The notes below the pieces were generated by a model. That model did no database searches, was not told where the DNA came from, and saw nothing but the letters and a program-made list of their open reading frames with translations. 64,000 bases of DNA. It comes from Mesoaciditoga sp. GTDB lineage: Bacteria; Thermotogota; Thermotogae; Mesoaciditogales; Mesoaciditogaceae. The stretch lies in contig WGFY01000013.1 in NCBI GenBank assembly GCA_015491995.1, forward strand, positions 1 through 64,000, read 5' to 3'. Positions 27,235 through 38,638 of the stretch are shown one piece after another; position 1 is the stretch's first letter, and each line of letters begins with the position of its first letter. The position numbers were made by a program, and so were the translations under genes.

Positions 27235-29821
<2,587 letters not shown>

Positions 29822-29878: not shown

Positions 29879-30415
29879 TCATCTCAAATAGAATTTTTTC
29901 TCTCCGAAGTTGAAAATGATGTGTGAATCCCCGACAATTTTGAAATCGACACTTTCCTTTCCGCTGTAAATCGTGTTAAACCCGCTAAAGTGCGTGTTAA
30001 CGTAATGAAGGCCAAATTTAATGGAGCATAATCTTGAAAAGCTCAAATTCCCCTTTGCCACGATTCTTCTAATCGTACTAACTTCTCCACTCAAAATTTC
30101 AAACCCGACAACAGGCTCTTCATTCAGCAACAAGATGGACCAGTTGGCATGCCGTATTAAAGAAAAAACTTTTCCATGTGTTTCTTTGTTAAGATAAAAC
30201 ATTATATTTTCAAACTCTTCTACCTTCTGCTGTTCACCAGAAATCATCAAAGTATTTCGGGATAAAATCGAAACGGATTCAAAAACGATCGTCAGTGCGA
30301 TCGTGTAAATCGTAAGTGCCACGAGCAGTTGCATTAGAATCGTGCCGGATTTGAAAAAAAAGCCTCTTTCCATCGGATTTACAGGTGTATTCGTACAAAG
30401 CCCCCCCACTTGCAT
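29879..30415 (-). CDS. Pseudopilin-like protein (GspJ/PulJ-like N-terminus)
   Basis: MERGFFFKSGTILMQLLVALTIYTIALTIVFESVSILSRNTLMISGEQQKVEEF: hydrophobic N-terminal helix and downstream amphipathic helix. Overlaps the neighbouring pilin ORF; start uncertain. Confidence 0.5.
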   Translation of the reverse strand: MQVGGLCTNTPVNPMERGFFFKSGTILMQLLVALTIYTIALTIVFESVSILSRNTLMISGEQQKVEEFENIMFYLNKETHGKVFSLIRHANWSILLLNEEPVVGFEILSGEVSTIRRIVAKGNLSFSRLCSIKFGLHYVNTHFSGFNTIYSGKESVDFKIVGDSHIIFNFGEKKFYLR

Positions 30416-30638
30416 CGTGAAATGTTACCAACTCTTTTTTCATATCAGTCGGGATATCAGCATTTGGAATCGAAAAAACATTTGAAGCGGATATCAAGAA
30501 AGCAAGGTCTTGAGAATTCATCTCTATGATCTTTTGACGATGCCACATTCCATCCATTGCATCCATCACCAATGAAAATAAAAGAAAGGATAACAGCATA
30601 AAAATCATTGATTCAAGAAGAATGCTTCCTTTATTCAT
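30279..30638 (-). CDS. Pseudopilin-like protein
   Basis: MNKGSILLESMIFMLLSFLLFSLVMDAMDGMW: short basic leader, G, E at about +5, hydrophobic stretch. Confidence 0.6.
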   Translation of the reverse strand: MNKGSILLESMIFMLLSFLLFSLVMDAMDGMWHRQKIIEMNSQDLAFLISASNVFSIPNADIPTDMKKELVTFHDASGGALYEYTCKSDGKRLFFQIRHDSNATARGTYDLHDRTDDRF

Positions 30639-31640: not shown

Positions 31641-32735
31641 TCAAAGAAACATCACTTTGTTCTTTCCCCGTTTTTTACCAGTTTCTATAAGCTTTTCACC
31701 TGTGTCAAGCAAATTGGAAAGCTGCGTTTCATCATCAGGAAAATATACGATTGAAACTGTACAAGTGAATTGTAGTGATGCGGCGCCGGCTTTGAATTTT
31801 CTTTCGGAACAACTCATGTTGATCCTTTCGGCTACGTTGATAGAGTCTTGCTTTGAAATTTCAGTTAACAATATAAGAAATTCATCATTTCCAAGCCTTG
31901 AAATCGTGTCAAGGGGAACTCTCACCATTTCTTTTAAAAATTTTCCGATCTCCCTTAGCACAAGTTTCTCGTCCTCTTGGCTTAGTTCGGATGTTTTCTT
32001 TTCGAAATCATCTATGTCAACAAATATCAAAGAGTACTTTATATCTTCTTGAAAGGCTTTAGAATGAAAGAAATTCAAATAATTCAACATGTGATCCCTT
32101 GAGTAAACACGTGTTACCGGATCGATGACTTCGCGAGTCCCCATTCCCCCCACGACATTTTCCACATTGTCGAATTCTTTTTTTACCAGATCGTTGTATT
32201 GTCCAATGAGTTCTTCCATTTTTTGAGACTGTGATTCGTACCACTCTGCCCTTTTTCTTAAAGAAGCGTTCTCTCTTTTGAATTTTTCAACTTCTCTTTG
32301 GACATCTTCTTTTTTAGCACTTTCTTTACTCCTTAAATCTGGAAAAAACCTCTTTATTTCTCTCTTCGCAGCCTCGATCGAATCAGATGCATGGATGGTG
32401 TTGGCAGGCTCCTGAACGGATAAATCACCTCTTATAGTTCCTGGTAACGCTTCAACCGGATCGGTTGCGCCACAAAGAGTTCTCACAACTTTCACGGATT
32501 CTCTACCTTCTACCACTATCGCGATTATAGGGCCACTTGTCATGAATTTCACCAATTTTTCGTAAAAAGGTTTCCCTATGTGTTCCGCGTAATGTTCTTC
32601 AGCCAGCTTTCTCGACATTTTCATCATTTTCATAGCCGTTATATTCAAACCTTTTCTTTCAAGTCTCCCGATTATTTCCCCAATAAATCCCCTTTCAATT
32701 CCATCAGGCTTTATAAGAATCAGAGTGCTTTCCAC
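31641..32735 (-). CDS. Fusion: nucleoside diphosphate kinase + coiled coil + degenerate GGDEF domain
   Basis: NDK: LILIKPDGIERGFIGEIIGRLERKG, PFYEKLVKFMTSGP, LCGATDP, PGTIRGDL, NTIHASDS. GGDEF: DPVTRVYSRDHM, SLIFVDIDDFEKK, ISRLGNDEFLILL. Confidence 0.92.
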   Translation of the reverse strand: MESTLILIKPDGIERGFIGEIIGRLERKGLNITAMKMMKMSRKLAEEHYAEHIGKPFYEKLVKFMTSGPIIAIVVEGRESVKVVRTLCGATDPVEALPGTIRGDLSVQEPANTIHASDSIEAAKREIKRFFPDLRSKESAKKEDVQREVEKFKRENASLRKRAEWYESQSQKMEELIGQYNDLVKKEFDNVENVVGGMGTREVIDPVTRVYSRDHMLNYLNFFHSKAFQEDIKYSLIFVDIDDFEKKTSELSQEDEKLVLREIGKFLKEMVRVPLDTISRLGNDEFLILLTEISKQDSINVAERINMSCSERKFKAGAASLQFTCTVSIVYFPDDETQLSNLLDTGEKLIETGKKRGKNKVMFL

Positions 32736-33531
32736 GTTTATTCCTCCTTTTCAGATAATTCATAAGGCTCTCCTCAAACAGCATGGCAAACCCCCTGTCT
32801 GCAAAAATAGGCTCCTCACCGAATTTATCGACCACTTCTTCAATTCGCTTTAATTTTAACAGAGAAGAAAGCGATTTGAATTTTTCAAGATACGTTATCA
32901 TATCGTTTATATCCCCAATTCCACCTGTAGGTCCATGTCCAGGGACGATCCACTTCAAAGGTTTTTCTCTTATCTTCTTCAATTTTTGAATCCATTTACC
33001 AACGTCCGATTCCGTCTCTATTTCAGCATGATATTTTGAAAAAACAAGATCTCCACAAAAACAAACTGCATCTGGCCACACGTAAACGATACACGAATCA
33101 GGTGTATGTCCACCAACATGAACGATCTCAACACTTTTATTTCCCAGATCAAACGTGATCTTGTTCTTGAATGTGACAGATGGCAGCACAAATTTCGCAT
33201 TCTTCAATTCTTTTTGGATCATAGGCTCAAGCGAAAATTTAAAGGATTCTAAGTCAAAATTCTCAAGATACTCTTTTGTCAAAACATTTCCAACAACTGG
33301 AGCATCAACTGCACAATTTCCAAGAGTATGATCAAGATGATAATGTGTGTTAACCACGTACAAAAGCACTTTGGATGTAATGGTTGAAAGGAATTCTGCA
33401 ATTCTTTTTGCCTTTGAAGGAAAAAACGTGGAGTCAACCATCATAACCCCTTTATCTCCTATGATGAGACCAGAATTCGCAGCTCCATTTGAATTTTCAG
33501 TAACAAATATAGAATCTCCGATAGAGAACAT
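32704..33531 (-). CDS. Metallo-beta-lactamase-fold hydrolase
   Basis: VNTHYHLDHTLGN, VGGHTPDSCIVYV, CFCGDLVF, VPGHGPTGG. Confidence 0.92.
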   Translation of the reverse strand: MFSIGDSIFVTENSNGAANSGLIIGDKGVMMVDSTFFPSKAKRIAEFLSTITSKVLLYVVNTHYHLDHTLGNCAVDAPVVGNVLTKEYLENFDLESFKFSLEPMIQKELKNAKFVLPSVTFKNKITFDLGNKSVEIVHVGGHTPDSCIVYVWPDAVCFCGDLVFSKYHAEIETESDVGKWIQKLKKIREKPLKWIVPGHGPTGGIGDINDMITYLEKFKSLSSLLKLKRIEEVVDKFGEEPIFADRGFAMLFEESLMNYLKRRNKRGKHSDSYKA

Positions 33532-35385: not shown

Positions 35386-35733
35386 TCATTCGTACAATTT
35401 AGTCGCTTTTGTATGAAGTAATGTGAATGTTCCCTTCGTTTGTGGGAGATTTGTACCTCTCCAAAAGTGATCTCTCAATTTCATATCCGCGTAGTAATAC
35501 ACCCAAGCTTCAAACGGTATCTTTTTGACCGGATCGTATTTTGATTTTGACACAAAAATCAAGTACCATATCGTTTGCTTCAAATCCTCTCTTTCATATG
35601 GATAAACTGAATAAAAATATTTATTTGTAAGAGCTGCCGCAACCCTTTCAAGATCTTTCATTTCATTTTTATCAGGACTTGGGTGCAAAACTTCATTTGT
35701 TTTTGCCTTTTTCCTTTTTCCACAAATTATCAT
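35386..35733 (-). CDS. Sigma-70 region-2-like protein lacking region 4 (RsoA/YvrHa-like)
   Basis: YEREDLKQTIWYLIFVSKSKYDPVKKIPFEAWVYYYADMKLRDHFWR resembles sigma-70 region 2 (DLxQxxxLgl...kYDPxxgxpFxaya...irgaixdyxR); ORF ends before any region 4. Confidence 0.6.
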   Translation of the reverse strand: MIICGKRKKAKTNEVLHPSPDKNEMKDLERVAAALTNKYFYSVYPYEREDLKQTIWYLIFVSKSKYDPVKKIPFEAWVYYYADMKLRDHFWRGTNLPQTKGTFTLLHTKATKLYE

Positions 35734-35950
35734 TAATCCATCCTACCATAAAATCGATCGCTTCTCCGATGAACCATTCTACCATGCTGCTAGGGAAAGG
35801 AAAAGCAATTCCGTTTTTTTTGATGAAGTCCTCAACAATTCGTATCACCTTTTTCCTTTTGCTGGCTCCATCGCCGGGATGTTCAACTAAAATAACCGCG
35901 GAATCTATGACAAGCTTAACATCTTTTAAAACGTTCAAAGTTTCTTCCAT
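35693..35950 (-). CDS. Small protein, possibly phage-holin-related
   Basis: 85 aa; GDGASKRKKVIRIVEDFIKKN ... SSMVEWFIGEAIDFMVGWIND pattern seen in some holin-like proteins. Weak. Confidence 0.4.
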   Translation of the reverse strand: MEETLNVLKDVKLVIDSAVILVEHPGDGASKRKKVIRIVEDFIKKNGIAFPFPSSMVEWFIGEAIDFMVGWINDNLWKKEKGKNK

Positions 35951-35994: not shown

Positions 35995-36237
35995 TCATTG
36001 AATCAGGTTGAACAGCTCGTCGTTATTTCTGTCTATCACGTTGGCAGAATCTACGGTGTCGCAAAGAGATCCCTTGGACGTGTAAAAAAGTTGTTTTGAT
36101 ACGGCGGCGTTCATAACGCTTTGGACCTCAGAATCAGTCAAGCCATCTTTTGGATCGGCAAGTCTGATCACCTTCGAGGAACCATCAGATGACGCTATGA
36201 ACTTCATGGCCAAATATTTAGTCGTTGTGGTTGCCAT
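35995..36237 (-). CDS. DUF2922 family protein
   Basis: MATTTTKYLAMKFIASSDGSSKVIRLADPKDGLTDSEVQSVMNAAVSKQLFYTSKG. Confidence 0.8.
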   Translation of the reverse strand: MATTTTKYLAMKFIASSDGSSKVIRLADPKDGLTDSEVQSVMNAAVSKQLFYTSKGSLCDTVDSANVIDRNNDELFNLIQ

Positions 36238-36253
36238 TATCACATCACCCCTT

Positions 36254-36496
36254 TCAGTTTATGGGACCGAGTTGAGTTGCCGTCCTAACATCGATCGCAT
36301 CAACGGTTTTAGAAGTTAGTCCAGCCAATTCGTACGCGAAATCGTATTTGTCCTGCTCTTGTGCCGCTGGGCTTACACCGTTTATCGTCACATGATCGAT
36401 GATTGCCTTTCCATTAGCGTCCGTTTGTCCGGTGTTGAGAGAAACAACAAGAGCTTGAGTTTTATCCAATTCACTTACAGTATCACCTGCTGCCAT
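36254..36496 (-). CDS. DUF1659 family protein
   Basis: ALVVSLNTGQTDANGKAIIDHVTINGVSPAAQEQDKYDFAYELAGLTSKTVDAI. Confidence 0.8.
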   Translation of the reverse strand: MAAGDTVSELDKTQALVVSLNTGQTDANGKAIIDHVTINGVSPAAQEQDKYDFAYELAGLTSKTVDAIDVRTATQLGPIN

Positions 36497-36646: not shown

Positions 36647-38638
36647 ATGAAGATGAGAGATGGGTATTTGTTGGTAACCGCTCTTGTACTGTTGGCAGCG
36701 GTGGGGATTTTTGTTGCCGTGATCACCAATGCCATTTCAAACACCTCTTGGCTTCGCGTTTCAAAAGAAGAATTGTTCATGGCTTCTTCCGATTCGATGA
36801 ACGGTTTACAAATGGGGACATCCTACATGGCGCATTTTGCCAACTCTATAGGTGGATTTGACATAGATCAAAGCTTATTCAACGTGCCTTTTTCTTCCAT
36901 TAGCTGGCTTCAGCCAAACTCTTCAAATGGTTTCTTCAATTCCATTTATTCTTCAATAGATGGAGACGCGTGGAAGAAAACTCTATCCATTTTGGCCACG
37001 AATTCAAATGTTTTGGTGCTAAACAATTTATCCAAAGTTGAAAATATGTTCGCATCTCTTAAAGCTTCAGGGGCTTTGCACGCAATTCCACAAGTTGTCG
37101 TTATTCAAACGAAAGATCCCAATACCAATGAAAACAGCAAATACAAATATTTTATCGTGTCACGCGCGGTTGTTGGAAACAAAGTCGCTTATTCGAGCGG
37201 ATTCGTGGTAGCGAACGCGTTGAATAGATATGTGTATTTCACGCAAGAAGAACCTCCATATTCTTCTCCATCCTACAATGTTACTTTCATGACGGGAGAT
37301 ACAATTAATGGACCTGTAAGAACCAACGGAACTTTGGTAACGTTTGGCACTCCTGACTTTAAAGGGCGTGTTTGGTACGACGGACTTTACAAAGTGCCTG
37401 GTTACGGCTCACCAAATTTTGAAAGCGGCGATTCTCAACTTTCAACCGAAGATATCGCTGAAATGAACATGTCAAAGATAGCGTCTTCATATTCCGCTGA
37501 AATAAATTCCGAAATTGCTTCTCCTTCTAAGATAAAATCAGAGGGTGTGACTTCAACGCCTGTTGGACTGAATCTTTCTCTCAGTTTAGCACCAATGCTT
37601 GAAAATGATCTTTATAAGTGGCTAAACAATAATAATTATTCTTATAATGATTTACCTCAATATGTTAAGAGTAAATATGAAAAAGCATATAGTGCTCTTT
37701 CTTTAGTCAGACCCGAAAGTATAAAAGTTACATTCACTTCAAACGGCAATTCAAAAACGATGAACGTTTATTACTCTAACAACGTTGATGTAGCAGTTGA
37801 AAGGGCACTTGAGGCGATATACGAACTTGAAAATGATGGTTATTGGTGGTGGTGGTGGTATTACGGCCCCGATTTCAGCGATGTTACAAATATACTCAAA
37901 AATGCGCAATCTAATGAAAATAATGAATGGAATTTACTTTTCACGATAAAACCAAAAAATGCTGATTCATCTGTTCCAGGTATTGTTACTCTAAATCCAA
38001 ATGGAGATGATGCAGCAAAACTTATGGGGTTGTCTTCACCATCCTCATTTGATTTCAATTTCAACGGCATATTAAAAACATCGTCCGATTTGTACATTAG
38101 CGGTAAGAAGAATCAGCAAGGTAATGATGATAAAACTGCGTACGTTTCAGGGAAGTATACTTTATACACAACACAAAGTGCCTATATCCAATCTAATATT
38201 GTTTACAATGACGCTAACAAACTTTTTAGTACAACGGATAAAGATTGGCTAACTTCTAAAGTTTCAACGTCTATGGTAAAAGAGTTGAGAAATTCAACAT
38301 GTAGCGATTTTCTCAACATCGTTGCCAACAAAAATATTGTTCTAAAGGATGATGTACCAGATGATCTTAAACTCATGGCAAGCCTTTATGCCTTTACTGG
38401 AAGCTTTTCATATGAAGGTTATGATAAATATCTAAAGGATCAGTTATTTTTATACGGCTCCATGATGCAGCACGAAGGTGGATTGACTGGCACATATTCT
38501 GGTAATCAGCTTTCAACTGGTTATCACTCTTATTACGCTTTCGATTGGCGCATTCTAAATGGGTTGCCGGCTAACATGTACGGAACGCCATCCGCAAGAG
38601 AAAAGGCGCTGCTCCTTTTTGTAAGGACGGTGTTTTAA
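36647..38638 (+). CDS. Large pilin-like/DUF4900-type surface protein
   Basis: Short basic N-terminus plus hydrophobic helix (MKMRDGYLLVTALVLLAAVGIFVAVITNAISNTSW), long extracytoplasmic region with GYWWWWWYYGP; followed by two prepilin genes. Confidence 0.7.
   Translation: MKMRDGYLLVTALVLLAAVGIFVAVITNAISNTSWLRVSKEELFMASSDSMNGLQMGTSYMAHFANSIGGFDIDQSLFNVPFSSISWLQPNSSNGFFNSIYSSIDGDAWKKTLSILATNSNVLVLNNLSKVENMFASLKASGALHAIPQVVVIQTKDPNTNENSKYKYFIVSRAVVGNKVAYSSGFVVANALNRYVYFTQEEPPYSSPSYNVTFMTGDTINGPVRTNGTLVTFGTPDFKGRVWYDGLYKVPGYGSPNFESGDSQLSTEDIAEMNMSKIASSYSAEINSEIASPSKIKSEGVTSTPVGLNLSLSLAPMLENDLYKWLNNNNYSYNDLPQYVKSKYEKAYSALSLVRPESIKVTFTSNGNSKTMNVYYSNNVDVAVERALEAIYELENDGYWWWWWYYGPDFSDVTNILKNAQSNENNEWNLLFTIKPKNADSSVPGIVTLNPNGDDAAKLMGLSSPSSFDFNFNGILKTSSDLYISGKKNQQGNDDKTAYVSGKYTLYTTQSAYIQSNIVYNDANKLFSTTDKDWLTSKVSTSMVKELRNSTCSDFLNIVANKNIVLKDDVPDDLKLMASLYAFTGSFSYEGYDKYLKDQLFLYGSMMQHEGGLTGTYSGNQLSTGYHSYYAFDWRILNGLPANMYGTPSAREKALLLFVRTVF

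Follow-up and report, generated by a model that had tools for sequence, protein, structure and literature searches.

The window, the 64,000-nucleotide stretch of Mesoaciditoga sp. DNA analysed as a whole, contains a continuous minus-strand open reading frame (32735..31641) of 364 aa, which starts at GTG, 7 nt after an AGGAGG ribosome-binding site, and in which a nucleoside diphosphate kinase (NDK) is joined to a degenerate GGDEF domain. The same-strand run around it includes a metallo-beta-lactamase (MBL)-fold hydrolase gene upstream and, downstream, genes for a tail-anchored DUF4899 protein, two pseudopilin-like proteins, neither of which has a Pfam match, a YhaM-like HD-domain protein and, last, the CTP synthase PyrG (Table 1). 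The first-pass annotation had read the frame as a single NDK and GGDEF fusion that overlaps the MBL-hydrolase gene by about 32 bp and lies upstream of a TM-anchored protein and two pseudopilin genes. Each of these points was borne out, with both Pfam domains in one 364-aa frame that has orthologues in five more genomes, a 32-bp overlap between the hydrolase gene and the fusion start at 32735, and DUF4899 followed by two prepilin-like N termini on the same strand.

Table 1. Features of the locus (coordinates of the window).
Feature	Position	Strand	Basis
Metallo-beta-lactamase-fold hydrolase, 275 aa, 32-bp overlap with the fusion start	32704..33531	-	position shared by every fused or split relative
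Shine-Dalgarno AGGAGG of the fusion gene	32743..32748	-	sequence
NDK - helical linker - pseudo-GGDEF fusion gene, 364 aa	31641..32735	-	ORF, Pfam, orthologues, AlphaFold model
NDK domain, aa 1-133, phospho-acceptor His115 at 32391-32393	32337..32735	-	Pfam, NCBIfam, Foldseek
Coiled-coil helix, aa about 134-203	32127..32336	-	alignment, AlphaFold model
Degenerate GGDEF domain, aa 204-364 (FVDIDDFEKKTSE, GNDEF)	31644..32126	-	Pfam PF00990, structure comparison
VRVPLDTISRLGNDEF, aa 271-286, family hallmark: RxxxD, then GNDEF	31878..31925	-	20-member alignment
DUF4899 (PF16240), tail-anchored, C-terminal TM segment	30642..31616	-	Pfam, neighbourhood
Pseudopilin-like small protein 1	30279..30638	-	prepilin-like N-terminus, weak ComGE match, conserved order
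Pseudopilin-like small protein 2	29879..30415	-	prepilin-like N-terminus, conserved order
YhaM-like HD-domain protein (3'-5' exoribonuclease-like)	28847..29821	-	domain matches; position conserved in L127
CTP synthase PyrG (UTP to CTP), last of same-strand run	27235..28842	-	position conserved in L127

The N-terminal half covers the full NDK domain (PF00334, aa 2-133, 180.4 bits against a cut-off of 27, E 1.9e-53; NF001908, 189 bits against a cut-off of 155), aligns with the M. tuberculosis NDK at a TMt of 0.94 in Foldseek and has 46-61% identity to crystallised NDKs in structural alignments. The phospho-acceptor and substrate-binding motifs of NDK are all there, namely IKPDG (aa 8-12), PFYEKL (56-61), LCGATDP (87-93), PGTIRGDL (98-105) and NTIHASDS (112-119), the last including His115, in agreement with the earlier description of an apparently complete NDK; judging from these residues, this half would be a working, catalytically active enzyme. 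The fusion is the sole NDK match in this MAG, which is 88% complete and in which a search for a second NDK found none, and the other fused genomes likewise have one NDK each. Most other Thermotogota have an NDK match; in families f8 and f10 (e.g., G056-G065 and G086-G099) there was none at E<=1e-20 to 1e-25, and these organisms probably balance their NTPs by another enzyme.

Between the domains, the AlphaFold model (mean pLDDT 90) predicts one continuous helix (aa 132-196), so that, of the charged coiled-coil linker described before, the helical stretch stands as a prediction; the pTM of 0.52 makes the relative placement of the domains unreliable. The C-terminal half matches PF00990 (aa 204-360, 77.2 bits, E 1.6e-21) above the curated cut-off and compares with single-domain GGDEF structures of the PDB at a TMt of 0.83-0.88. 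This fold and score would suit an active diguanylate cyclase that draws its GTP from the attached NDK; however, such a role is highly improbable, with GG(D/E)EF and the Lys and Asn/Asp of FKxxND all substituted. The signature reads GNDEF (282-286) and the guanine/phosphate-contact motif reads FEKKTSE, with DIDDF kept (within 238-247). Close relatives, fused and split, have G(E/T/A/V/F)(D/N)EF, the second Gly varying freely among the fused proteins (N, E, T, A), and in genus g4 the sequence is GANEF, so the metal-ligand position is lost too. The catalytic positions are degenerate in all aligned pseudo-GGDEF members. Six other GGDEF proteins encoded by this MAG retain GG(D/E)EF together with the FKxxND Lys and Asn/Asp, so the degeneracy is peculiar to the pseudo-GGDEF family, and with at least six such canonical proteins c-di-GMP is probably made. 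Loss of diguanylate cyclase activity is well supported by the missing signature residues, as had been anticipated from GNDEF and FEKKTSE. The accompanying proposal of a GTP-binding module fared worse: the guanine contacts are gone, as is the metal ligand in g4, and most standalone relatives have lost DIDDF and the C-terminal hairpin as well, which leaves a weak case for GTP binding by this half.

The geometry of the pocket and the I-site was assessed at the sequence level. In place of the I-site RxxD, which canonically precedes GGDEF by five residues, an RVPLD-type RxxxD is present in 20/20 aligned members, and the R, P, D and second R of this hallmark are invariant among them. The motif might be a modified c-di-GMP I-site, and a ligand sensor has to be weighed, in which the pseudo-GGDEF would bind an NTP, ppGpp or c-di-GMP through a remodelled pocket or I-site and tune the NDK allosterically. 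The probable synthesis of c-di-GMP and the placement of RxxxD where RxxD would be are consistent with it, as are PDB 9g85/9g86, described as PleD complexed with c-di-GMP and ppGpp/pppGpp, and the retention in the fused members of DIDDF and a C-terminal GKxxGKN motif, lost from most murA-linked relatives; GKxxGKN takes the position of the phosphate-contact residues in canonical GGDEFs. However, the guanine contacts are absent, the metal-ligand equivalent is N in g4, RxxxD is one residue longer than RxxD and contains an invariant Pro, and the murA-linked relatives keep the same hallmark surface without most of the pocket, so a sensor role appears rather unlikely.

Homologues of the linker and GGDEF domain were found in 58 of the 103 Thermotogota genomes, although the match in G044 is weak and probably represents a GGDEF protein of a different kind. 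In genomes without the fusion, the pseudo-GGDEF is a standalone protein of about 200 aa with a coiled coil and common residues, and the family hallmarks DPxTRVYS, KAFxE (KAFQE in the fusion) and a VRVPLDS(V/I)GR-type motif (VRVPLDxxxR) are all found in the fusion. In the tree, the GGDEF half of the fusion groups with the murA-linked proteins, apart from the diguanylate cyclases of the same organism; by its sequence, it is a member of this Thermotogota family and not a random diguanylate cyclase. PDB 6khu also belongs to the family by its match (E 8e-41), and a literature search for this entry or for Thermotoga mreB/murA/GGDEF returned nothing. The linker of the fused and split proteins is exactly one heptad (7 aa) longer than that of the murA-linked relatives.

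Outside Mesoaciditogaceae, 49 of 50 genomes have murA directly downstream of the pseudo-GGDEF in the same orientation (48 by script plus G055, with a 19-bp overlap; the exception is the weak G044); the arrangement occurs in 0/8 of the Mesoaciditogaceae (f1) genomes having the domain. In most f9 and two f11 genomes, mreB (PF06723) is found just upstream of the pseudo-GGDEF, within about 0.8 kb in 16 of the 17 genomes checked; the gene between them encodes an OsmC-like protein in f11; in f9 its product is a small membrane protein that matches no Pfam family and may be MreC. In none of the 10 Mesoaciditogaceae genomes was MreB detected, and all of them have murA elsewhere. The pseudo-GGDEF is missing from all f6 and g30, most f7 and two g2 genomes, and its function is therefore dispensable. 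As a separate observation, the order mreB - small membrane protein - pseudo-GGDEF - murA recurs in several genera (L123:6571-8813 and the murA-linked loci L044-L063), where the small membrane protein and the pseudo-GGDEF look like unstudied cell-wall genes; in G081-G084 (g30), mreB and murA are still close with no pseudo-GGDEF match, an apparent natural deletion.

Full-length orthologues of the fusion (67-73% identity) were found, among the 103 Thermotogota genomes, in five others of genera g3 and g4, the gene studied here being from g1. The fused form is thus present in six Mesoaciditogaceae genomes of three genera, on several independent contigs, which rules out an assembly artefact or frameshift. 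Production of a separate GGDEF protein by internal restart was also rejected, as no start codon preceded by a ribosome-binding site is conserved at the junction. In two g2 genomes, including that of the cultured Athalassotoga saccharophila NAS-01, the halves are separate adjoining genes, the NDK stop and GGDEF start overlapping as ATGA and the ribosome-binding site lying inside the NDK end. This arrangement points to a fusion of operon neighbours, and because the genes are separate in Athalassotoga and all other families, the fusion is best read as derived. The simplest history has adjacency first and then a single in-frame fusion on the branch ancestral to g1, g3 and g4; the tree is compatible with it, with weak support for the fused group (50/21). 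Mesoaciditogales have been described as the deepest branch of the phylum (PMC7163026), and for this reason it is not certain that the pseudo-GGDEF was first at murA; its place beside ndk could be the earlier one.

The same features allow a neutral fusion, in which the overlapping stop was lost and two co-translated genes became one, the halves kept their old jobs and the link itself does nothing. A small indel in the ATGA overlap would suffice, and the distribution agrees with one origin inside a single clade. The only NDK gene has, however, kept the fusion in three genera, and where dS is unsaturated the dN/dS of NDK, linker and GGDEF is 0.03-0.14, indicating strong purifying selection; selection on each half would also account for this. 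A neutral origin is accordingly given perhaps one part in four of the credence and, with the sensor role, is the main rival of the scaffold proposed below.

Family genomes carrying the domain keep the order MBL - NDK/pseudo-GGDEF - DUF4899 - pseudopilin-like genes, the pseudo-GGDEF of Mesoaciditogaceae being located between ndk and DUF4899. Such an order would suit a pilus or surface module in which the fusion serves the two downstream pseudopilin-like genes, as first suggested under the name of a nucleotide-responsive surface or pilus module. That suggestion drew on the neighbourhood, and the stronger phylum-wide association of the domain is with murA and, in some genera, mreB; the surroundings of the murA-linked copies inspected showed no recognisable pilin-like genes. 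Furthermore, G010 and G011 (g2) lack both the pseudo-GGDEF and DUF4899 and keep ndk directly before both pseudopilin-like genes. In this event at least, the domain went with DUF4899 and not with the pilin-like genes, so a pilus module seems most doubtful. Across the phylum, the presence of DUF4899 and pseudo-GGDEF correlates (53/4/23/23, with the kinship of genomes ignored); DUF4899 often occurs without the pseudo-GGDEF, and four genomes have the latter without DUF4899. The distance from ndk to DUF4899 is <6 kb in 18 of the 19 f7 genomes compared and also in G002, and among 14 control genomes DUF4899 was present in Thermotoga maritima only. In families f7, f9 and f10, DUF4899 also immediately follows a pair of ADP-glucose pyrophosphorylase-like genes whose sequences resemble glgC/glgD (L121:4003-7425, L123:14606-17998, L124:2021-5445, L128:5648-9017), which suggests that it is linked to glycogen or sugar-nucleotide metabolism.

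Here it is proposed, with a probability of about 0.5, that the fusion is the sole housekeeping NDK carrying a permanent C-terminal pseudo-GGDEF scaffold, which tethers it to an envelope partner. The C-terminal half would be a non-catalytic, probably dimerising coiled-coil protein, usually encoded at the murA locus, with mreB as well in some genera; in Mesoaciditogaceae, where no mreB was found, its gene is part of the ndk-DUF4899 operon and is fused in frame to ndk in three genera. It would likely bind a membrane protein through the conserved surface around VRVPLD(S/T)xxR, the best candidate being the tail-anchored DUF4899 protein, and so cluster or localise the NDK, with NTPs made near envelope synthesis, including UTP and CTP for UDP-GlcNAc and lipid-linked precursors. 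A protein-protein module fits because what is conserved is the former I-site region (RVPLD, with its invariant Pro) and a coiled coil differing by one heptad, and a scaffold is favoured over a sensor because the wider family keeps the hallmark surface and loses the pocket. Counting against it, many Thermotogota lack the domain, DUF4899 is often present where the domain is not, adjacent co-translated genes can fuse without gain and standalone NDKs manage without such a tail. A broader and far more tentative idea is that the pseudo-GGDEF is an unrecognised cell-wall component of Thermotogota acting at or near MurA (and MreB where it occurs), rewired in the MreB-less Mesoaciditogaceae so that the sole NDK is physically part of it; if true, nucleotide supply would be coupled directly to envelope growth in these bacteria.

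That the only detected NDK of a cell should be attached to an inactive signalling domain is uncommon and open to direct test, and the fusion, together with the murA setting of its relatives, points tentatively to a not yet described connection between nucleotide supply and the cell envelope in the heat-loving Mesoaciditogaceae. It also exposes a phylum-specific pseudo-GGDEF with a solved structure for which no description was found, located at murA in nearly every other carrier genome, and thereby offers a concrete way into the cell-wall regulation of a deep-branching phylum.

NDK is normally a stand-alone soluble enzyme. The fusion has the same full domain (PF00334; NF001908) and active-site motifs as bacterial NDKs but differs by a 230-aa C-terminal extension, and an NDK-only search of 390 genomes gave no comparable extension outside Mesoaciditogaceae among the matches listed; the two longest NDK open frames, in G131 and G238, were upstream read-through and not fusions. 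The whole fusion was likewise absent outside the family at E<=1e-50 in these 390 genomes of 299 genera, a search that a distant fusion to an unrelated GGDEF could escape, and from 72,556 plasmids at 80% query coverage. No published description of the architecture was found, in line with the earlier remark that no characterised protein of this kind is known, and it is a new combination of two known domains that, within the genomes sampled, is confined to a single family.

The murA-linked proteins have the coiled coil, DPxTRVYS, KAFxE and VRVPLDxxxR in common with the fusion, whereas the latter is joined to NDK, has one additional heptad, keeps DIDDF and the C-terminal GKN hairpin and has no adjacent murA. 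The GGDEF cyclases PleD, SiaD and tDGC of T. maritima have the same fold and coiled-coil plus GGDEF layout; the fusion, in contrast, is without the catalytic signature and the I-site RxxD. LapD and PopA are degenerate GGDEF receptors or adaptors that use a non-catalytic GGDEF for regulation or protein contacts; the fusion has no EAL or receiver domain, and its GGDEF is attached to a metabolic enzyme. In eukaryotes, NME7 and NME8 contain NDK within a larger multidomain protein, but with different partner domains and an unrelated origin. Elsewhere in the window, a DUF2922 and DUF1659 small-protein pair (35995-36496, minus strand) lies beside two uncharacterised small ORFs (35386-35950), and a 663-aa protein (36647-38638, plus strand) has a prepilin-like N-terminus and a sub-threshold DUF4900 match only.
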